From: Gemmatimonadaceae bacterium
GTDB lineage: Bacteria > Gemmatimonadota > Gemmatimonadetes > Gemmatimonadales > Gemmatimonadaceae
Assembly: GCA_036504815.1 (NCBI GenBank)
Contig: DASXUN010000010.1
Coordinates: forward strand, 62,001 to 126,000
DNA: 64,000 nt
Direction: 5' to 3'
The notes below the pieces were generated by a model. The model worked only from the letters and a program-made list of their open reading frames with translations, was not told the DNA's origin and did no database searches. The first letter of the stretch is position 1, and every line of letters starts with the position of its first letter. Positions 28,963 through 41,499 of the stretch are shown in pieces. The position numbers were made by a program, and so were the translations under genes.

Positions 28963-30606
28963 TCACGGCGAAACAAGCCCGCGGAAGTAGTGCTCCAGGC
29001 CCTCGACGACGCCCCGTGCGTAAGCGCGCTGGAACTCGCGGGTGCGCAGCGCGGCTTCCTGCTCGGGCATCACCACCCACGCCCCCTCGCAGAGCACCGA
29101 CGGGAACCACGTGGCCCGGGCCACCGCGAGGTTGTTGAAGAAGATCCCCTCGTCGCGCAGGCCCATGGTGCGCACCATCCCCTGCTGCACGGCGCGCGCC
29201 AGCGGTTCGCTCTGCGGATGGAAGAAGAACGTCCCCGACCCGCGCGCCGCGGCGAACGGATTGGCGCCGTCGGCGAACGCGTTCAAGTGGATGCTCACGA
29301 ACGCCTCGGCGTTCTCGCGCCGCGCCTGGATGGGGCGCGCGCCGAGCGCGACGGCGTCGGCGGTGCTGCGGAGCATCACCACGCGGGCGCCACGCGATTC
29401 CAGCAGCTCCTTCAACTGTTCCGCAACGCCGAGCGTGGCCTCGGGCTCGCGCAGGCGCGTGGGGCCCATCGCGCCGCCGGGGGGATGGCCGGCGTCGACG
29501 GCGATCACGCGACCGCGCAGCGGGGCCGTGGCGTCGACCACGGGGAGATGCCGCACGCGCAGCACCAGCGAACCCGCGCGCCAGAGCACGAGATATCCCA
29601 CCGGCTGGTGCCGCAGGTCGACCTCGAATCGCACGCGGTCGTTGGTCGCCTGCTCGTAGCGCAGCAGGCGCACCATCGGATCGTTCGTGTCGAAGCGCAA
29701 GTAGTCGAGGTTGGCGCGCGCGCTGTATACGGTGAGCGTCATCCCTTCGCCGGATTCATCGACGGCGATCGGCGCGCGGGCGTCCATCGTGATCACGACA
29801 TCGGTGTAACCCACACCCATCGCCACGCGCGCGGCCGAGATGCGGCGCACGCGCGCGGCTGCGTCGGATGCGCCGGGCAGCGCGGCGCCCGCGTTTGCGT
29901 CGGCGCCGGGCACCGACTCGGCGGCCGCGTCGTCCACCCACGCCTCGAGCTGGCTGTCCAGCCGGATGCGCACGCTGTTGCCCAGCCGGCCCGTGGACTG
30001 CACCACCGTGCCCGGCAACAGGAAGTACTTGTACGTGCCGCCCGCCACGGGGCGGGCGATGGTCACCCGGTCGGTGTCGGAGTCGGCGTACTCATTGGTA
30101 TTGGCCAGCGTCACCGCGCGCGGATATCCCACCGTGTCGAGCACCGCCGCTGGACGCGGCGGGCCGCCCCGCGCCGGGAAGCGGATGCGCCGGACCGCGG
30201 CCGCGGTCTCGCCCGTGGGCAGTGACGCCGACATCGCGTACGCCGTGTCGGCCGGCACGGGAAGAAAGGCCATGAACGACCCGTTCGGGTTCACCTTCAC
30301 GGGGGCGCCGTTGATGGTCAGGGTCGCGTCGCCATTGCCGACGCTTCCGAACACGAAAGTCGACTCACGCACGGACAGGGTGTACCCCTCGGGCGGGTAG
30401 ACCATATCGAGCGCTAGCGGGCCCGTGACCTTGGGGAAGGGCGGCAGGCCCGGACGAGCCGGCGGGACCGGCGCGGGCGGCGGCGGTGCCGTCTCCACGG
30501 TGCGGATCGGCACGGGCGCGGCGGTGGGCGGCGGGTTGCCGCCGACGCAGGCCGTGGCGAGGAGACCGAGGACAATCACCCGGTGGGAGGCGGGGCGCGA
30601 GCACAT
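28963..30606 (-). CDS. N-acetylmuramoyl-L-alanine amidase (Amidase_3)
   Basis: Lipoprotein cell-wall hydrolase of 547 residues that should cut the bond between MurNAc and the stem peptide. Lipobox LLATAC follows MCSRPASHRVIVL. Residues ~60-330 hold beta-sandwich and SH3/AMIN-like regions. The C-terminal Amidase_3 domain starts at RVIAVDAGHPPGG with the first zinc His, has Glu in REPEATLG, the second His in FVSIHLNAF and a catalytic Glu in VLCEGAWVV. The ATG at 30606 gives a proper lipoprotein; TATTAT lies only ~8 bases upstream, so a very short leader is possible. Linker residues are Pro-rich. Confidence 0.9.
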   Translation of the reverse strand: MCSRPASHRVIVLGLLATACVGGNPPPTAAPVPIRTVETAPPPPAPVPPARPGLPPFPKVTGPLALDMVYPPEGYTLSVRESTFVFGSVGNGDATLTINGAPVKVNPNGSFMAFLPVPADTAYAMSASLPTGETAAAVRRIRFPARGGPPRPAAVLDTVGYPRAVTLANTNEYADSDTDRVTIARPVAGGTYKYFLLPGTVVQSTGRLGNSVRIRLDSQLEAWVDDAAAESVPGADANAGAALPGASDAAARVRRISAARVAMGVGYTDVVITMDARAPIAVDESGEGMTLTVYSARANLDYLRFDTNDPMVRLLRYEQATNDRVRFEVDLRHQPVGYLVLWRAGSLVLRVRHLPVVDATAPLRGRVIAVDAGHPPGGAMGPTRLREPEATLGVAEQLKELLESRGARVVMLRSTADAVALGARPIQARRENAEAFVSIHLNAFADGANPFAAARGSGTFFFHPQSEPLARAVQQGMVRTMGLRDEGIFFNNLAVARATWFPSVLCEGAWVVMPEQEAALRTREFQRAYARGVVEGLEHYFRGLVSP

Positions 30607-30719: not shown

Positions 30720-31841
30720 ATGACGAACGCCGACCTGAACGAGGCACGCGTGAACCGTTGCGGATTTTGCGGGCGGGAAAACGAGGGGGAGTCGCGCTTC
30801 TGCATTGATTGCGGGAAGCCCATCGTCGCATCGGGGGCGCGGGTGATCGAAGTTGCCTCGATCATGAATCCCGGCGGCGCCCGGATGTCCTCTCCTGCCT
30901 CGGGGATACCGGCCACGCGCATCTCCGAAGCCGCCAAACCCGCGCCCGGAACAAAGCGGGGGTGCCCCTTCTGCGGCGCCTCGGTGCACACGGGGCTTCC
31001 GTTCTGCCCGCAGTGCGGCGGCCGGCTCAGCAACGAACCGGCCCCGCCGCCCGCGCCCGCGCTCACGTGCGACGCCTGCGGCAAGCCGGTGCGCGCCGGC
31101 GACCAGTTCTGCCCCCGATGCGGGGCAAAGCGCGTGGCGGCCACACCGCCGACGCCGCCGGGAGGGACACAAGTCTTCTCGGCGCGCGCCACGCAGAGCG
31201 GCCCCAAGCTCGCGCTGCTCGGTGACACGGGGCAGATCACGCAGCAGTTCACGCTCGGCGCCGCGGAAGGGATCGTCGGCCGCGTGGACGGCGAAATTCG
31301 GTTCCCCGACGACGTCTTCATGAGCCCTGTGCACGCGCAATTCGCCGTGCGCGACGGCGAACTCTTCGTGCGCGATCTCGGATCGCGCAACGGCACGTGG
31401 GTCTTCCTCGACGCGCCGATGAAGCTCAGCGACGGCGACGCCATCCTCGTCGGTTCGCAGATCCTGCGCTTCAAGCGGCTCGGCTATCCGGGGCCCCATC
31501 CGCCCGAGGCCGATGCCACGCGCCGGCTCGGCTCGCTCCTCCCGCACGGCGATATCGCCGTGCTGCAGCAGCTGCGCGCCGACGGCTCGGTGCGCGATTC
31601 GCTGCACCTGAGCCCCGGGCGCACCGTCTTCCTCGGGCGCGACAAGGGCGACTGGGTTTTCCCGTACGACCAGACGATGAGCGGCAGCCACGCCGAGGTT
31701 CGCAACGAGGACATGGACTTCGTGCTCCTCGACGCGGGAAGCCGCAACGGCGTGGCGGTGTCGGTGCGCGGGGAACGCGCCGTGCGCGTGGGCCAGCGCG
31801 TGCTGATGGGCGACCAGATCCTGCGACTGGAGAGCATGTGA
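30720..31841 (+). CDS. triple zinc-ribbon, double FHA domain protein
   Basis: Predicted cytoplasmic phosphothreonine reader, 373 residues. Three zinc ribbons come first: CGFCG..FCIDCG (~residues 12-30), CPFCG..FCPQCG (~80-100) and CDACG..FCPRCG (~120-140). Two FHA domains follow: one with GIVGRVDGEIRF, SPVHA and SRNGTW (~185-250), the other with VFLGRDKG, SGSHA and SRNGVAV (~300-370). No membrane helix. The stop overlaps the kinase start (GTGA), so it is the first gene of a kinase-phosphatase operon. It likely recruits proteins phosphorylated by that kinase (inference). Confidence 0.88.
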   Translation: MTNADLNEARVNRCGFCGRENEGESRFCIDCGKPIVASGARVIEVASIMNPGGARMSSPASGIPATRISEAAKPAPGTKRGCPFCGASVHTGLPFCPQCGGRLSNEPAPPPAPALTCDACGKPVRAGDQFCPRCGAKRVAATPPTPPGGTQVFSARATQSGPKLALLGDTGQITQQFTLGAAEGIVGRVDGEIRFPDDVFMSPVHAQFAVRDGELFVRDLGSRNGTWVFLDAPMKLSDGDAILVGSQILRFKRLGYPGPHPPEADATRRLGSLLPHGDIAVLQQLRADGSVRDSLHLSPGRTVFLGRDKGDWVFPYDQTMSGSHAEVRNEDMDFVLLDAGSRNGVAVSVRGERAVRVGQRVLMGDQILRLESM

Positions 31842-33541
31842 GCGACCAGAAGATCTGCCCGACGTGCGGCACGGAGTACCCGCTGAGCGAGCGGTTCTGC
31901 CCGCGCGATGGCACGGCCCTGCGCAGCGCGAGCGCGAGCACCGACCTGATGGGGACGGTGGTGGCCGACCGGTATCACATCCTCAAGAAGCTCGGCGAAG
32001 GCGGCATGGGGCAGGTCTACCTGGCCGAGCACGTGAAGATGGGGCGCAAGAGCGCGCTGAAGGTGATGAACCCGGGGATGAACCAGGACGCGGACGCGAT
32101 CGCGCGGTTCAACCGCGAGGCGTCCAACGCGAGCCGGCTCAACCACCCGAACATCTGCGCCATCTACGACTTCGGCGAGACGCCGGACGGCCTGATCTAC
32201 CTCGCGATGGAATTCATCGAGGGGACGTCGCTCACCTCGCTCGTGGAGAAGAGCGGGGCGCTGCCGCCGGCGCGCGCCGCCGCGATCATCCATCAGAGCG
32301 CCGACGCGCTGCAGGTGGCCCACGACGCGGGGATCGTGCACCGCGACCTGAAGCCCGACAACATCATGATCGCGAAGAATCGCGACGGGTCGGACCTGGC
32401 GAAGGTCGTGGACTTCGGCATCGCGAAGGCGCACAGCAGCGACGCGCAGAAGGTGACGAAGACGGGGATGGTGGTGGGGACGCCCGAGTACATGAGCCCG
32501 GAGCAGTTGTCGGGCGACAAGCTGGACGGCCGCAGCGACATCTACTCGCTGGCGCTGGTCGCCTTCAACTGTCTCACGGGCAAGCTCCCCTTCCCGGCCG
32601 AGTCGGCGCAGGAAGCGATGATCGCGCGTCTCATCGAGCAGCCGAAGACGCTGGCCGAGATGAAGCCCGACGTCGCCTGGCCCGCCGAGGTGCAGGCGGT
32701 CATGGACCGCGCGCTCGCGCGCGACGCCAACGAGCGGTACCAGAGCGCGGCGCAGTTTGGCCGCGAGCTGTGGGCGGCCTGCGAGAGCATGCCCGCGTCG
32801 CAGGCGGCGGAGGCGGGGACGCAGGTGCTGAGCGCGCCGGCCTCGACGGCCGCCAACCTGCCGAAGACGCGCGTGGCGACGCCCGGTGAGGGGGGCAGGA
32901 CGGTGGCGGCGCCGGCGGCACCGGCCGCGAAGGCCCCCGCAGCCGCAGCGACCCCTGCGGCCCCGGCAGCCGTCAAGAAATCGAACACGATGATGATCGC
33001 CGCCGCTGTGATCGGGATCGCAGTCCTGGGTGGGGGCGGATACTATATGGTGAGTTCGAAGGGAGCCGAAACGCCTTCGGCCACCGACAGCGCGGCGATG
33101 CAATCGGGAAACGGAGGCAGTGGGGTGTCGGCCGCTCCGTCCGCAGCGCCAGCCACACAACCAGGCGGCGTGACCGAGTTGAAGACGCCGGTGAATCCGA
33201 ACGGTGGCAGTGGTCGTACGCAGGGTGGGGCGGCGGCACCGGCGACCGTGCCGGGTGGGGCACCGGCAGCAGGCGGTGGAGCGGCGCTCGTGGCGAAGTG
33301 GATGCCACAGCACGACGATCTCACTAAGGGCTCGGCGCAGCAACTCGTGAATGAGTTGGAAGGCATCATCCCGACGCTGTCTGGCGAAACCAAGGGCAAC
33401 GCGTACTATCTGGTCGGCCGGGCCTACCACAAACTCGACAACACGGGCGACGCCTGCAGCATGATGGAAAAGGCGAAGCCGCTGGTCCGGGGCAGCACGC
33501 TGGAAGTCGTCAATCTCACCATCGAATCCATCTGTAAGTGA
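31838..33541 (+). CDS. transmembrane Ser/Thr protein kinase with zinc ribbon
   Basis: Hanks-type kinase of 567 residues. A short ribbon CPTCG..FCPRDGT opens the protein. The kinase domain (~residues 42-305) has the G-loop LGEGGMGQVYLAE, Lys in ALKVMN, HRDLKPDN, DFGIAK, and SPEQ in place of APE. An Ala/Pro-rich linker leads to one membrane helix (MMIAAAVIGIAVLGGGGYYM, ~385-405). The extracytoplasmic part is low-complexity, then ends in a helical TPR-like region (QQLVNELEGIIPTLSG, AYYLVGRAYHKL) with two Cys. GTG start and stop both overlap neighbours. It is the probable writer of the circuit. Confidence 0.93.
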   Translation: MSDQKICPTCGTEYPLSERFCPRDGTALRSASASTDLMGTVVADRYHILKKLGEGGMGQVYLAEHVKMGRKSALKVMNPGMNQDADAIARFNREASNASRLNHPNICAIYDFGETPDGLIYLAMEFIEGTSLTSLVEKSGALPPARAAAIIHQSADALQVAHDAGIVHRDLKPDNIMIAKNRDGSDLAKVVDFGIAKAHSSDAQKVTKTGMVVGTPEYMSPEQLSGDKLDGRSDIYSLALVAFNCLTGKLPFPAESAQEAMIARLIEQPKTLAEMKPDVAWPAEVQAVMDRALARDANERYQSAAQFGRELWAACESMPASQAAEAGTQVLSAPASTAANLPKTRVATPGEGGRTVAAPAAPAAKAPAAAATPAAPAAVKKSNTMMIAAAVIGIAVLGGGGYYMVSSKGAETPSATDSAAMQSGNGGSGVSAAPSAAPATQPGGVTELKTPVNPNGGSGRTQGGAAAPATVPGGAPAAGGGAALVAKWMPQHDDLTKGSAQQLVNELEGIIPTLSGETKGNAYYLVGRAYHKLDNTGDACSMMEKAKPLVRGSTLEVVNLTIESICK

Positions 33542-34701
33542 GCGATTCCTCGTCCCCCCGAGATATCATCGTCCACGTCTTCGGACGCACGGACGTCGGC
33601 CGCACGCGCGACCACAACGAGGATTCCTTCGTGGTCGCCGACCTGACGGCGATGAACGCCACGCTGCAGCCCGAGGTGCGCGAGCATCGGCTGGGCACGC
33701 GCGGCACGCTCTTCATGGTCGCCGACGGCATGGGCGGCGCCGCCGCGGGTGAAGTGGCGAGCCAGATGGCCACCGAGGTCGTGCTCGAGGAGCTCGACAC
33801 CTGGTGGCGTCGCTCGGAGAGCACCGACCCGGACACGTTTGCGTCGGCGCTGCGCAAGGCGGTGGAGACCGCCAACGCGCGCATCCACCGCTACGCGCTC
33901 GACCACCCCGAGAACCGCGGGATGGGGACGACGACGACGATCGCCGCGGTCCTCGATGACAAGCTCTACCTCTGCCAGGTGGGCGACAGCCGCGGCTATC
34001 TCATTCGCGACGGCATCGCGATCCAGGTGACGAAGGATCAGTCGCTCGTGCAGCGCCTCATCGATGCGGGCGAACTGACGGCGGAAGAAGCCGAGGTGAG
34101 CGAGCGCCGGAACATCATCCTGCAGGCGCTCGGGCCGGAGCCGGCGGTGAAGGTGGATCTCACCGTGCAGCAGCTGCGACGCGGCGACACGCTGGTGGTC
34201 TGCAGCGACGGCATGTCGGGGCAGATGCGCACGGTGGACATCGCGCGCATCGTCACGGAGCAGTCGCCCGACCTGATGGCGACGTGCAAGGCGCTCATCG
34301 ACCTGGCGAACGAGAACGGCGGCCCCGACAACATCACCGTGATCGCGGCGCGGTTCGAGGGCGAGGGGCTGCAGCCGGCCGCCGCCAGCGATTTCGTCGG
34401 CCACCGGCCGTACGTGTCGCCCGCGGAAGCGCGGGCCACGATGCCGGTGAGCGCCGCGACAATCGCGCAATCGCTGGACGATGCAGAGCTGCTGGACGCG
34501 TCGCTCGTCACCACCGCGGAGACGGAGGTGCCGGCCGCCGCCGCGGATGCCGCGGGCGCGGTGCGCGCCACGACTCCGATGGCGTCCGCGGTCGATCCGC
34601 CGGCGTCGCGGCTCACCGTCGCGCAGCTGCGCCTCATTTTTGGCGGCCTCACCGTGCTCGTCGCGGCCTGGCTGGCCTGGGTCTACCTCCTCAAGGGCTG
34701 A
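33538..34701 (+). CDS. PP2C-family Ser/Thr protein phosphatase, membrane-anchored
   Basis: Manganese-dependent phosphatase of 387 residues, the likely eraser for the neighbouring kinase. Metal motifs are all present: GRTRDHNEDSF, VADGMGGAA, VGDSRGYLI, SDGMSGQM and GPDNITVIA. The domain covers residues ~10-265, followed by a variable linker and one C-terminal helix (LIFGGLTVLVAAWLAWVYLL), so it is tail-anchored in the inner membrane. The GTG start overlaps the kinase stop (GTGA) and the next gene starts seven bases after its stop. Confidence 0.93.
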   Translation: MSDSSSPRDIIVHVFGRTDVGRTRDHNEDSFVVADLTAMNATLQPEVREHRLGTRGTLFMVADGMGGAAAGEVASQMATEVVLEELDTWWRRSESTDPDTFASALRKAVETANARIHRYALDHPENRGMGTTTTIAAVLDDKLYLCQVGDSRGYLIRDGIAIQVTKDQSLVQRLIDAGELTAEEAEVSERRNIILQALGPEPAVKVDLTVQQLRRGDTLVVCSDGMSGQMRTVDIARIVTEQSPDLMATCKALIDLANENGGPDNITVIAARFEGEGLQPAAASDFVGHRPYVSPAEARATMPVSAATIAQSLDDAELLDASLVTTAETEVPAAAADAAGAVRATTPMASAVDPPASRLTVAQLRLIFGGLTVLVAAWLAWVYLLKG

Positions 34702-34708
34702 GGCCGCC

Positions 34709-36160
34709 ATGGCCATCGAGCTCCGCATCACCAGCGGCGCGCGCGCGGGTGCTCGCGAAGTCTTCACCAAGTCCATCATCGCCATCGGTCGTCATCCGAT
34801 GAGCGACCTGCGCCTCGACACGGAGAAGGATCTCGACGTGTCGGCGCGCCACGCCGAGATCCGCATCGTGGGCGGCACGGCCACGCTGCGCGACGTGGGG
34901 AGCAGCAACGGCACCAGGGTCAACGGCCAGCCGCTGGTCGGCGAGCGGGCGCTGTTCGACGGCGATGTCATCGCGCTGGGCGGTGCGGCCGGCGCGGCAA
35001 TCGAGTTTCGTCGCATGGCCGAGACGGCAGTGGAACCGGTGGCTGCCGCGGCGCCACGCGCCGAAGCGCCGGCGTCACGAGGCGAGCGGCCCGCGCCACG
35101 ACCCGAGCCGCCTGCGCCAGTACCAGCGCCTGATGCCAAGCCGGTTCCGCCGCGCCGTGACACGGGCGCGCGCATCGCCGAGGCCGTCGAGATGCAGACG
35201 GGCACGCTGCGCCGCACGCTCTACGCGTTTGGCGCCGCGGTGGTCATCATCGGACTCGGCCTGGCGTGGATGAGCCGGCAGAACGCCGCCGCGGACCGCG
35301 CCACCATTGAGCAGTTGCTTCGCGAGCTGCAGGACCAGAACACGGCCATCGCGCAGCTGCGCGGCAGCGCCGGGGCCAACGGGCTGACCAATGAAGTCGG
35401 GCGCATCTCGCGCGAGCGCGACTCGCTGCTCACCGTGCTGCGCGCCGGTGGCGACAAGGCGGCCGTGACGCAGCGCATCGCGGAGCTGAGTGCGCAGCAG
35501 ACGGCGGCCGGCGCCGTGAGCAAGGTGGACTACGAGCGCATCGCCGACCAGAACACGCGCGCCGTGGCGTTCATCGTGGTGGACCACGGCAATGACCATG
35601 TCGAAGGCGGCTCAGGCTTCGGCGTCACGCGCGACGGACTCATCGTCACCAATCGGCACGTGGTGCAGGGTGCGGGCGACGCGGCGCCCACGCGCATCGC
35701 GGTGCAGTTCCACGGCACCCGGCGCTGGCTGCCGGCGCACGTGGTCAAGGTGTCGAGCTCCGACGACCTGGCGTTCCTCAAGGTGGACGCGCCCGGGTCG
35801 TTCCCCGCGGTGATGGGCGTCGCCCCGAGCGGCGGCGTGCGCCCAGGGGCGCCGATCGCAATCGTCGGGTATCCGCTGGGGAACGAGACGGCGGGGATGG
35901 GCGGCTCCATCGACACGATGACCGCGCGCGCCTCGCTGACGGTGGGCACGGTGAGCAAGTCGGTCCCCGATATCCTGCAGGTGGACGCGTACGTGGCGCA
36001 CGGCTCGAGCGGCAGCCCGGTCTTCAACGAGCGCGGCTACGTGGTGGGCGTCGTCTACGGCGGTCCCACCGAAGCGGCGGGTCGCATCGTGTACAGCGTG
36101 CCGAGCGATCGCCTGATTGCGCAGCTGCCGGGCGAGGCGGCGGGGGTCGTCAGGCAGTAG
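34709..36160 (+). CDS. FHA - membrane helix - trypsin-like serine protease
   Basis: Single-pass membrane protein of 483 residues. A cytoplasmic FHA domain (~residues 1-95: IIAIGRHPMSDLRL, VSARHAEI, SSNGTRVNG) is followed by a Pro/Ala-rich linker, a helix LYAFGAAVVIIGLGLAW (~172-190) and a coiled-coil stretch to ~250. The remaining ~200 residues, outside the membrane, are a trypsin-like protease: TNRHVV (His), SSDDLAFLK (Asp) and HGSSGSPVF (Ser); no PDZ domain is seen. The design suggests control of an outer protease by phosphorylated partners inside. Last gene of the circuit operon. Confidence 0.9.
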   Translation: MAIELRITSGARAGAREVFTKSIIAIGRHPMSDLRLDTEKDLDVSARHAEIRIVGGTATLRDVGSSNGTRVNGQPLVGERALFDGDVIALGGAAGAAIEFRRMAETAVEPVAAAAPRAEAPASRGERPAPRPEPPAPVPAPDAKPVPPRRDTGARIAEAVEMQTGTLRRTLYAFGAAVVIIGLGLAWMSRQNAAADRATIEQLLRELQDQNTAIAQLRGSAGANGLTNEVGRISRERDSLLTVLRAGGDKAAVTQRIAELSAQQTAAGAVSKVDYERIADQNTRAVAFIVVDHGNDHVEGGSGFGVTRDGLIVTNRHVVQGAGDAAPTRIAVQFHGTRRWLPAHVVKVSSSDDLAFLKVDAPGSFPAVMGVAPSGGVRPGAPIAIVGYPLGNETAGMGGSIDTMTARASLTVGTVSKSVPDILQVDAYVAHGSSGSPVFNERGYVVGVVYGGPTEAAGRIVYSVPSDRLIAQLPGEAAGVVRQ

Positions 36161-36163
36161 CGG

Positions 36164-37612
36164 TCAGGTCACGAGCGCCCGCGCCGCGGCCTCCTGCATC
36201 CCCTTGTCGCCGGCCCAGGCGCAGAGGACGTGCGCCGCGTCGGGCAGCTCCGCCGCGAGGCGCGGATGGCCGAACAGCACCACCAGCGAGTCGCGCTTGA
36301 GCGACCGCGCCGCCTGCACCGCGAGCCGCACCGTCAGGCGCGACTGCGGGGTGAGGCTCACGTGCCCCTTGCCGGCGAGCACGTCGGCATAGACGGCAAT
36401 CACCAGCACGCCCTCGCCCGCTTCGGTGGCGCCGGGCACGACGTTCACCGTGCGGCCCAGCGCCTGCAGGGCCTGAATGAACGTCCAGCGCGACGGCGCC
36501 GCGCTCGCCGGGTCGTCGTCCACCACCACGACCTCGCACGCCGGCGGCACCCACGGCACACGGCCGCGCACCACCTGCAGCACACGGTCGCTGACCTGCT
36601 TGGCCCACGTGCGATCGTCCAGGGTGGGACCGCGCAGGTCTGGGAGCCAACGTCCCCACGTGGCCCACCAGTCGCGCCGCGCGCGCGCCGCGGCCAGCGC
36701 ATCGCCGTTCAGGCGCCCGCTGGCCAGCGCATCGCCGACGGCCTGCACGACGAGCGCGGGATTGGTCGGCGCGAGCAGCAGGTCGCAGCCGGCGGCGAGC
36801 GCGCCGACCGCGGCCTCGCCCTCGCCGTCGCCGGCGCTCACGCCACGCATCTCGAGCGCATCCGAGACGACGAGCCCCGTGTAACCGAGCGTCTCGCGCA
36901 GCACGCGAAGCGTCGGCGCCGATCGCGTCGCCGGCAGACCGGACGCGTCGAGCGCCGTGTACGCGACGTGCGCCGTCATCACGCTGGCGACGCCGCTGTC
37001 GATCGCGGCGCGGAATGGGACGAGGTCGCTGGCCATCAGCTCGGTGAGGCTCTCCTCGAGCACGGGGAGCGCGAGGTGCGAGTCGGCCGCCGTGCGCCCG
37101 TGCCCCGGAAAATGCTTCGCGCAGGCGAGCACGCTCTCGGCCTGGCACGCATCGATCCACTCGGCGGCGAGTTCCGCCACGCGCGCCGGATCGCTGCCGA
37201 AGCCGCGCGTTCCGATGATCGGATTGCCGTTCGCGAGATCGAGGTCGCAGACCGGGCCGAGCGCCCAGTTGAGCCCGATCTCGCGCGCGTCGCGAGCGGT
37301 GATGCGCGCCGCGCGGCGCACCGCGTCGGGATCGCCGAGCGCCGCGAGCGCGCCCGCCGGCGGGAGGGAGACGGCGCCCGGGAAGTGCTCCCCCGCCCCG
37401 CGCTCGAGGTCGGCGCCCACGAGGAGGGGAACCGGCGAGTGCGCATGGAGGGCGCGCGCGAGCTGCGCCACCTCGTAGCGCGGCCCGCCGCGGATCAGGA
37501 AGCCGCCGACGCCAAGCGCCAGCGCCTGGTCGATCGCTTCGCGCGTCCCCGCCCATCCGAAGTCGCGGTCCCAGCCGATGACGGCGATGACGTGCTGGCC
37601 CAGCTCCTTCAT
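36164..37612 (-). CDS. nagZ: glycoside hydrolase family 3 beta-N-acetylhexosaminidase
   Basis: Enzyme of 482 residues, expected to cut GlcNAc from GlcNAc-anhydroMurNAc fragments in the cytoplasm (no signal peptide). The NagZ signature KHFPGHGRTAADSH supplies the substrate Lys-His and Asp-His dyad, and SDALEMRGV carries the nucleophile Asp. A second, C-terminal alpha/beta domain (~residues 335-482) makes it longer than E. coli NagZ and closer to the two-domain Bacillus type. The ATG at 37612 gives the family's proper start; the open frame continues upstream by chance. It lies eight bases after the anmK stop. Confidence 0.88.
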   Translation of the reverse strand: MKELGQHVIAVIGWDRDFGWAGTREAIDQALALGVGGFLIRGGPRYEVAQLARALHAHSPVPLLVGADLERGAGEHFPGAVSLPPAGALAALGDPDAVRRAARITARDAREIGLNWALGPVCDLDLANGNPIIGTRGFGSDPARVAELAAEWIDACQAESVLACAKHFPGHGRTAADSHLALPVLEESLTELMASDLVPFRAAIDSGVASVMTAHVAYTALDASGLPATRSAPTLRVLRETLGYTGLVVSDALEMRGVSAGDGEGEAAVGALAAGCDLLLAPTNPALVVQAVGDALASGRLNGDALAAARARRDWWATWGRWLPDLRGPTLDDRTWAKQVSDRVLQVVRGRVPWVPPACEVVVVDDDPASAAPSRWTFIQALQALGRTVNVVPGATEAGEGVLVIAVYADVLAGKGHVSLTPQSRLTVRLAVQAARSLKRDSLVVLFGHPRLAAELPDAAHVLCAWAGDKGMQEAAARALVT

Positions 37613-37620
37613 CCGCGGCG

Positions 37621-38772
37621 TCAGGCGGGCGTGAGCGTGCCGAGCACGCGCGGTCCGCGCGCGCCGGTGCAGGCGGGAACGTTGCCGGGAAGTCCGCACA
37701 GGTGCAGCCACCCAAGGAACGCAAACGCCACCGCTTCCTTGGCGTCGCCGTCGAAGAAGACGTCGTCGAACTGGCGCACCGGCCGCGGGGCCATCAGGGC
37801 CTCGAGCCGTCGCACGAGCGCGGGATTGCGCGATCCGCCGCCCGAGATGATCAACTCGGCCACCGGCTCGGGAATGAACCGCTCGAACGCAAGCGCGATG
37901 CTCCGCGCGGTGAGTTCGACCGCCGTCGCCACGATGTCAACGTCGCGACAGTCCGCGCTGGCCGCGCGGCAGCGCGCCATGAAGTCGGCGACATACGCCG
38001 GCGTGAACAATTCGCGCCCCGTGCTCTTTGGCGGCGGCGCGCTGAAGTACGGATGCATCAGAGACTCGTCGACGACGCTCGCGATGGCGCGTCCGCGCAA
38101 GGCGAGCGCGCCGTCCACGTCATACGGGAGGTCCGGGTGCAAGGCGCGCACGACCGCGTCGATGATGCCAACCCCCGGACCCGTGTCGAAGGCGCGCGTG
38201 CCCGACACGCCGCCACCCGGCGGCACGAGCGTCACGTTGCCGATTCCCCCGATGTTCTGCAGCGCGCGCCAGTCGGGCCCTGCAAAGAGGAGCGCGTCGG
38301 CAATCGGGACGAGCGGCGCCCCCTGCCCACCGGCCGCGACGTCGCGCGTCCGGAAGTCGGCAATCACCGGGCGACCCGTGCGCTCGGCGATCGCCGCCGG
38401 CTGACCGAACTGCCACGTGGCGCGTGGCGCGTCGTGCCAGACCGTGTGTCCGTGCGAGGCGATGGCGTCCACCTCGTCGCGCGCGAGCCCGCTCTCGGCG
38501 ATGGCCGCCACCGCCGCCGCGCCCAGCCGCTCGCCCAGTTCGAAGTCGAGGCGCGTGTAGTCGCCCGGATGCGTGGGCGTGGCGATGGCGCTCAGCAGGC
38601 GCGCGCGGAACGCGTCGTCATACGCCTGCTGCACGAAGGCGAGCAGCTCGGGCATCGGCCGGTCATCGCGCGCCCCGGGAACGAAGCGCACCACGGCGGC
38701 ACTGATGCCGTCGTGCGACGTCCCCGACATCAAGCCGACGAGGACGAGGGGGCGCGCCGCGCCGGCGTTCAC
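37621..38772 (-). CDS. anmK: anhydro-N-acetylmuramic acid kinase
   Basis: Converts anhydroMurNAc to MurNAc-6-phosphate with ATP; 383 residues. Motifs: VGLMSGTSHDGISAA near the N-terminus (phosphate loop), SHGHTVWHD, NIGGIGNVT, FDTGPGVGIID and ELIISGGGSRNP. These are the standard AnmK set, complete. The GTG start at 38772 overlaps the murQ stop by four bases; the open frame upstream is not conserved. Central gene of the MurNAc recycling operon. Confidence 0.94.
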   Translation of the reverse strand: MNAGAARPLVLVGLMSGTSHDGISAAVVRFVPGARDDRPMPELLAFVQQAYDDAFRARLLSAIATPTHPGDYTRLDFELGERLGAAAVAAIAESGLARDEVDAIASHGHTVWHDAPRATWQFGQPAAIAERTGRPVIADFRTRDVAAGGQGAPLVPIADALLFAGPDWRALQNIGGIGNVTLVPPGGGVSGTRAFDTGPGVGIIDAVVRALHPDLPYDVDGALALRGRAIASVVDESLMHPYFSAPPPKSTGRELFTPAYVADFMARCRAASADCRDVDIVATAVELTARSIALAFERFIPEPVAELIISGGGSRNPALVRRLEALMAPRPVRQFDDVFFDGDAKEAVAFAFLGWLHLCGLPGNVPACTGARGPRVLGTLTPA

Positions 38773-39683
38773 GCGCTCACCGGGGGCGGCGCGTCGGGAA
38801 TGACGCGGCGAATGACGCCGCCGTGGGCGGCGAGGCGGCGGAGCGCCTCGTCCTTGTCCACGCCGAGCTTCTGCATCACGATCGCCGTCCTGACGCTGCG
38901 TCCGGCCGCGTCGAGCAGCGTGCGCGCCTGGTCGCGATCGACGCCGCACACGACGCGCAGGATCCGCTCGCTCCGATCCTCGAGCTTCTGGTTGGTGGAC
39001 TGCAAGTCCACCATGATGTTGCCGTACGTCTTGCCGAGGCGGATCATCGCGCCCGTGGTGATCGTGTTGAGCACCAACTTGGTGGCCGTCCCCGCCTTCA
39101 TGCGCGTGGAGCCGGTGACCACTTCGGGGCCGGTGACGACGACGATGGCGACGTCGGCCGCCGCGAGCGTCTCCGGCGGGGGCGGCGAGCAGGCGACGAT
39201 GGCGGTGCGCGTGCCGATCTTCCGGCCGTGCTCGAGCGCGGCGCGCACATACGGCGTGGTGCCGCTGGCGGCGATGCCAATCACGAAGTCGCCGGCGCGA
39301 ACACCCGCCTTGTCGAGGTCGTCACGCGCCCCTTGCGGCCGGTCCTCGGCCCCTTCCTGCGCGCGTGTCAGCGCCGGCGGCCCGCCGGCGATGATGCCCT
39401 GCACCATCTCGGGATCGACGCCGAACGTCGGCGGACACTCCGACGCATCGAGCACGCCCAGCCGCCCCGAGGTGCCGGCGCCAACGTAGAACAGGCGGCC
39501 GCCCGCGCGAAACGTCTCTTCGGCCATCTTCATGGCCTGCGCAATCTGCGCCGCCTGCGTGGCGACAGCGGCCGGGACACGGGCGTCTTCGGCGTTGATG
39601 AGCGCCACGATCTCTTCGGGCGAAGCGAGGTCAATCTCCGCCGTACGCGGATTGCGCTGTTCGGTGATGCGTGGATCGAGCAT
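38769..39683 (-). CDS. murQ: N-acetylmuramic acid 6-phosphate etherase
   Basis: SIS-domain lyase of 304 residues that splits MurNAc-6-P into GlcNAc-6-P and D-lactate. Signature segments are TEQRNPRT, YVGAGTSGRLGVLDASECPPTF, GIAASGTTPYV and TGSTRMKAGTATKLVLN; the catalytic Glu is in AQEGAED. The C-terminal helices (DEALRRLAAHGGVIR) fit the family. ATG 39683 starts the conserved MLDPRITEQ; upstream frame to 39812 is not conserved. First gene of the operon, divergent from ggt. Confidence 0.95.
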   Translation of the reverse strand: MLDPRITEQRNPRTAEIDLASPEEIVALINAEDARVPAAVATQAAQIAQAMKMAEETFRAGGRLFYVGAGTSGRLGVLDASECPPTFGVDPEMVQGIIAGGPPALTRAQEGAEDRPQGARDDLDKAGVRAGDFVIGIAASGTTPYVRAALEHGRKIGTRTAIVACSPPPPETLAAADVAIVVVTGPEVVTGSTRMKAGTATKLVLNTITTGAMIRLGKTYGNIMVDLQSTNQKLEDRSERILRVVCGVDRDQARTLLDAAGRSVRTAIVMQKLGVDKDEALRRLAAHGGVIRRVIPDAPPPVSA

Positions 39684-39750
39684 GGTCGGGGTGTGGAGGG
39701 CCGCTATGGGAGCGAACGGGCTTGGTGCTAAGTTACTGGGCGTGCGTGCC

Positions 39751-41499
<1,749 letters not shown>

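Follow-up and report, generated by a model that had tools for sequence, protein, structure and literature searches.

A predicted single-pass FHA–trypsin protease encoded with a Ser/Thr kinase and a PP2C phosphatase in Gemmatimonadaceae

The operon and the domain layout of its last gene product

The window, a 64,000-nucleotide stretch from a Gemmatimonadaceae genome of 3.5 Mb, contains a four-gene operon encoding, in this order, a zinc-ribbon/two-FHA protein, a Ser/Thr kinase, a PP2C phosphatase and a protein with an FHA and a protease domain, termed FHA-protease here (Table 1). The first three genes are joined by 4-nt overlaps (zinc-ribbon protein/kinase at 31838–31841, kinase/PP2C at 33538–33541), and a gap of 7 nt separates the PP2C stop from the FHA-protease start. 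The phosphatase passes the NCBIfam Stp1/IreP cut-off (230.4 against 230). A periplasmic tail is predicted for the kinase from its transmembrane helix; PASTA domains were absent from its Pfam matches, and its score of 321.7 for the PASTA-type PknB family fell below the cut-off of 450.

The preliminary description had delimited the FHA-protease gene exactly, from ATG to stop. By sequence, its product consists of an FHA domain, a variable leash, one transmembrane helix, a helical stalk and a trypsin/HtrA-like protease domain. Both domain assignments are well above their Pfam cut-offs (57.3 bits against 20.7 for FHA, 87.9 against 27.6 for Trypsin_2), and the best sequence match in the PDB is human HTRA1 (E 2e-16). 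The Pfam scan detected no PDZ domain at E < 0.05, in agreement with the earlier reading; since the protein ends only about 35 residues past the Trypsin_2 match, there is no room for one. The closest named relatives of the genome, mostly Gemmatimonadetes/Gemmatimonas metagenome assemblies, share 72–81% protein identity with it, and no plasmid record covering 80% of the FHA-protease was found.

Table 1. Coordinates of the operon, the parts of the FHA-protease and the conserved neighbouring genes within the window
Feature	Position	Strand	Remarks
N-acetylmuramoyl-L-alanine amidase (Amidase_3)	28963..30606	-	divergent; lipoprotein-like leader; conserved neighbour
Zinc-ribbon + two-FHA protein	30720..31841	+	373 aa; first gene of the operon
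GTQVFSA motif immediately preceding FHA1 (zinc-ribbon protein)	31164..31184	+	resembles the kinase linker motif
Membrane Ser/Thr kinase	31838..33541	+	567 aa; PknB-like kinase domain; TM aa 387-405
Kinase juxtamembrane motif 1, GTQVLSA	32816..32836	+	Thr328
Kinase juxtamembrane motif 2, PKTR	32861..32872	+	Thr344
PP2C phosphatase	33538..34701	+	Stp1/IreP family; C-terminal TM
FHA-protease gene	34709..36160	+	ATG 34709, stop at 36160; 483 aa
FHA domain, aa 25-91	34781..34981	+	Pfam, E 2e-15; pocket residues G27, R28, S45, H48, N67 intact
Pro/Ala-rich leash, aa 103-148	35015..35152	+	between FHA and membrane
Juxtamembrane segment RRDT152-xARIAEAVE	35153..35191	+	conserved; contains T152
Single transmembrane helix, aa 170-188	35216..35272	+	from hydropathy
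Helical stalk, aa 190-270	35276..35518	+	heptad signal weak
Trypsin_2/HtrA-like protease domain, aa 301-448	35609..36052	+	Pfam, E 1e-24
Catalytic triad codons	H317 at 35657, D353 at 35765, S434 at 36008	+	
NagZ-like GH3	36164..37711	-	convergent; conserved neighbour
AnmK	37621..38949	-	conserved neighbour
MurQ	38769-39812	-	after AnmK; conserved neighbour; named from sequence alone
Gamma-glutamyltransferase-like gene	39532-41499	+	conserved neighbour; named from sequence alone

Topology, conservation and distribution of the FHA-protease

The helix at aa 170–188 (mean hydropathy 1.93) is the single hydrophobic segment of the FHA-protease, and the hydropathy profile revealed no hydrophobic N-terminal signal. 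A transmembrane-like segment was present in all 55 homologues at a hydropathy of at least 1.3 and in 49/55 at at least 1.5, while a second segment of at least 1.6 occurred in just one. Lys and Arg were richer on the FHA-side flank in 43/55 homologues and on the protease-side flank in 2/55, with means of 4.1 and 2.7 residues, respectively; the net charge of the flanks differed with a Wilcoxon p of 5e-9, calculated with kinship ignored. This charge bias makes an FHA-in/protease-out topology likely; with the FHA domain in the cytoplasm, the protease domain would lie in the periplasm. The single helix and the asymmetry of its flanks thus support the arrangement given in the preliminary description.

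Conservation was highest at the two ends of the protein. In the phosphothreonine pocket of the FHA domain, G27, R28, S45 and H48 were each kept in 55/55 homologues and N67 in 53/55. The catalytic triad was retained almost as strictly (H317 in 54/55, S434 in 54/55, and D353 in 50/55, the other five having Glu), which, together with the Trypsin_2 match, upholds the His–Asp–Ser protease proposed earlier. Selection therefore appears to act on both ends. The leash, in contrast, is hypervariable in sequence and length, ranging from 4 to 64 aa across homologues. In the segment that follows, residue 152 is Thr in 41/55 homologues and V160 is kept in 47/55; T152 is a candidate phosphosite or helix cap.

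The stalk measured 76–96 aa in all but one homologue, was poor in proline and is probably helical. No more than 13/54 homologues showed a 3.5-residue periodicity above that of shuffled sequences at p < 0.05, and the FHA-protease itself gave p = 0.085; a classical coiled coil over the whole stalk is thus not supported. The coiled coil envisaged between membrane and protease in the preliminary description is accordingly borne out only in part: the proline-poor, probably helical stalk stands, and its heptad character is weak. The AlphaFold models were of low confidence, both for the full-length protein (10 sequences, mean pLDDT 50) and for the protease part alone (pLDDT 46).

We followed the distribution of the gene in 101 genomes of the order; the phylum search sample comprised 100 genomes. 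Within the order, the FHA-protease was found in 53 genomes, a kinase match in 66 and the PP2C phosphatase in 92. Homologues also occur in other families of the class, so the gene is not a chance product. The arrangement of amidase, zinc-ribbon/FHA protein, kinase, PP2C, FHA-protease and NagZ/AnmK/MurQ is shared by members of three families of the order, and in two further families of the class the kinase and/or the PP2C gene adjoins the FHA-protease.

Kinase and FHA-protease were largely present or absent together. Both adjoined the PP2C gene at 42 of the 92 PP2C loci and both were missing at 38, leaving 12 mixed loci, 9 with the protease only and 3 with the kinase only (Fisher p 8.5e-14, kinship ignored). 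Several mixed loci are contig ends (e.g. G008, G086 and G107). Another mixed locus, G078, truly lacks the FHA-protease and retains the zinc-ribbon FHA protein, and in two more (G106 and G115) no kinase could be recognised next to PP2C and protease. At the mixed locus of G064 (L074), the coding sequence of the FHA-protease is broken into two frames, through decay or an assembly error. Inspection of ten protease-less loci (L064–L073) showed PP2C beside the amidase, mostly with NagZ/AnmK/MurQ as well, and without the orthologous kinase; two of these loci (L068 and L069) carry a zinc-ribbon/FHA-like gene.

Candidate docking motifs and mechanisms

The linker between the kinase domain and the transmembrane helix of the kinase is generally unalignable, yet two Thr motifs are kept in it. 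The pattern T[QMRE][VLMIP][LMIV] occurred in the linkers of 32/40 kinase orthologues (shuffled linkers: mean 1.6, maximum 7) and [PQ]xTR in 31/40 (mean 2.0, maximum 8). Among 18 comparison kinases, the next-best matches in genomes of the same order, the corresponding counts were 2 and 0 (Fisher p 9e-7 and 1e-8). These counts are partly post hoc, because the patterns were set after about half of the linkers had been viewed; the other 20 came later, and many of them also had the motifs. On this basis, the two Thr motifs are candidate FHA docking sites. A GTQVFSA-like motif was kept in part of the zinc-ribbon protein orthologues, and its placement before the first FHA domain looks GarA/OdhI-like.

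Related arrangements have been described. The juxtamembrane domain of pneumococcal StkP is phosphorylated (PMC12077195), the FHA ligand of DgcB is the protein's own tail (PMC6733907), and in GarA an ETTS site in a disordered segment serves as the FHA ligand (PMC5448819). GarA/OdhI and DgcB thus resemble the present case in that their FHA domain is accompanied by a disordered segment carrying a Thr motif (PMC5448819, PMC6733907). They differ in being soluble metabolic regulators or a cyclase, whereas the FHA-protease is predicted to span the membrane, and its binding to the motifs is likewise a prediction.

Phospho-dependent docking appears to be the mechanism that these features support best. 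The kinase would autophosphorylate the TQVL and PKTR motifs in its disordered juxtamembrane linker; further phosphosites may be T152 of the FHA-protease and, in the zinc-ribbon FHA protein, the TQVF motif. The FHA domain, on its flexible leash, would bind the phosphothreonine, and this binding would gather and position protease molecules at active kinase sites on the inner membrane. There, the trypsin-like domains would act on periplasmic cell-wall proteins, and the PP2C phosphatase would reset the phosphorylation state. The operon with its kinase, PP2C and second FHA protein, together with the co-occurrence, makes the link to phosphorylation stronger than could be seen from the gene alone in the preliminary description. 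We put the probability that the FHA-protease is a single-pass, HtrA-like periplasmic protease coupled by its FHA domain to the kinase and phosphatase of its own operon at about one half. We propose only tentatively the narrower scheme, in which the autophosphorylated linker motifs of the kinase recruit the FHA-protease and cytoplasmic Ser/Thr phosphorylation controls the periplasmic cleavage of cell-wall enzymes. The two loci at which PP2C and protease adjoin no recognisable kinase (G106 and G115) count against the coupling as a whole. So does the protease-less G078, which retains the Thr motifs besides the zinc-ribbon FHA protein; the motifs may therefore serve the latter protein.

The genomic context would fit peptidoglycan turnover better than a general DegP-type envelope stress response. 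A peptidoglycan-related substrate is our guess from the adjoining genes. The divergent Amidase_3 is a possible substrate.

A transmembrane switch would work differently: FHA binding or phosphorylation of T152 would repack the helix formed by the transmembrane segment and the stalk, and thereby toggle the outer protease. The segment adjoining the membrane is conserved at T152 and V160 although the leash before it varies, and the low-confidence full-length AlphaFold model contains one helix spanning aa 153 to 221, both of which agree with such a switch. With a leash of 4–64 aa, however, a rigid pull on the helix by FHA binding is improbable, and T152 could simply be a helix cap. The hypervariable leash argues for docking or clustering over a rigid signal through the helix, and we consider the switch possible but rather unlikely.

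The FHA domain could also be a localisation tag only, holding a constitutive or periplasm-cued protease at sites of the kinase or of division, with no phospho-dependent control of its activity. Bacterial kinase networks commonly use FHA domains as anchors, and the flexible leash would suit this role. The largely joint presence or absence of kinase and protease suggests, without proving it, that the two are linked in function and not in space alone, and leaves this reading improbable in our view. Least credible is a reverse flow, in which the protease would regulate signalling by cleaving the kinase, or another sensor, in its periplasmic domain and the FHA domain would bring it to this substrate: the kinase has a predicted periplasmic tail and is encoded beside the protease, and the same co-occurrence would fit, but G106 and G115 have the protease without an adjacent kinase.

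Bacterial Ser/Thr kinases are known to act on cytoplasmic targets; how they exert effects in the envelope is less well understood. The operon described here, which is conserved over an order of Gemmatimonadota, joins a kinase, a phosphatase, a phospho-reader and a putative outer protease, so that internal phosphorylation could plausibly steer envelope proteolysis. If docking does operate as proposed, it would link internal phosphorylation directly to proteolysis in the periplasm, beside genes of peptidoglycan turnover and recycling, and bacterial signalling through Hanks-type kinases would have the control of cell-wall enzyme proteolysis as one of its outputs.

Comparison with known systems

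The HtrA proteases, including DegS, DegP and HhoA, share the protease fold with the FHA-protease by sequence, and DegS is likewise tethered by one N-terminal transmembrane helix. The FHA-protease differs in lacking a PDZ domain and in having a large FHA domain predicted to be cytoplasmic. Membership in the DegP/DegS family was rejected on the absent PDZ domain and on the scores (67.7 against a cut-off of 416.2 for the Do family, 36.2 against 422.95 for DegS). A reading as one of the YscD/PrgH inner-membrane proteins of type III secretion, which combine a cytoplasmic FHA-like domain with a ring domain, was also rejected: the Yop-YscD_cpl score passes its cut-off (36.9 against 33.2), but the FHA score is higher, a protease makes up the part predicted to lie in the periplasm, and the neighbours examined included no type III secretion genes.

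MarP (Rv3671c) of mycobacteria is a membrane-anchored periplasmic trypsin-like protease without PDZ, which cleaves the peptidoglycan hydrolase RipA (PMC6628586). It has four putative transmembrane helices and no FHA domain, whereas the FHA-protease has one helix; with an NCBIfam score of 65.9 against a cut-off of 250, we did not assign the FHA-protease to this family. MarP and DegS may be regarded as functional analogues rather than family matches.

The pairing of FHA and trypsin domains is not new. A 2008 survey lists an FHA-FHA-Tryp protein of Bacteroides thetaiotaomicron, NP_811686.1, as a single case (PMC2605481). Its FHA part is also N-terminal to a trypsin-family protease; it has two FHA domains, and the survey's listing does not describe a transmembrane helix, topology, kinase operon or ligand for it (PMC2605481). 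We also observed a second subfamily in several Gemmatimonadota families (L045–L048 and L117–L119), with two FHA domains, a transmembrane helix, a longer stalk and a trypsin domain; it lies mostly away from the kinase operon and resembles the Bacteroides architecture.

Among open-licence papers, we found none that describes this operon, the topology of the FHA-protease or the Thr motifs, nor a report of an output of Hanks-type signalling from a kinase to a periplasmic protease. The closest parallel for the gene arrangement is found in Actinobacteria, where the kinase PknB, the PP2C phosphatase PstP and the FHA proteins FhaA and FhaB are encoded in one operon and act in cell-wall signalling. The Gemmatimonadota operon likewise combines a kinase, a PP2C phosphatase and FHA proteins, and also adjoins cell-wall genes; it differs in that its kinase lacks PASTA domains and its output would be a protease.
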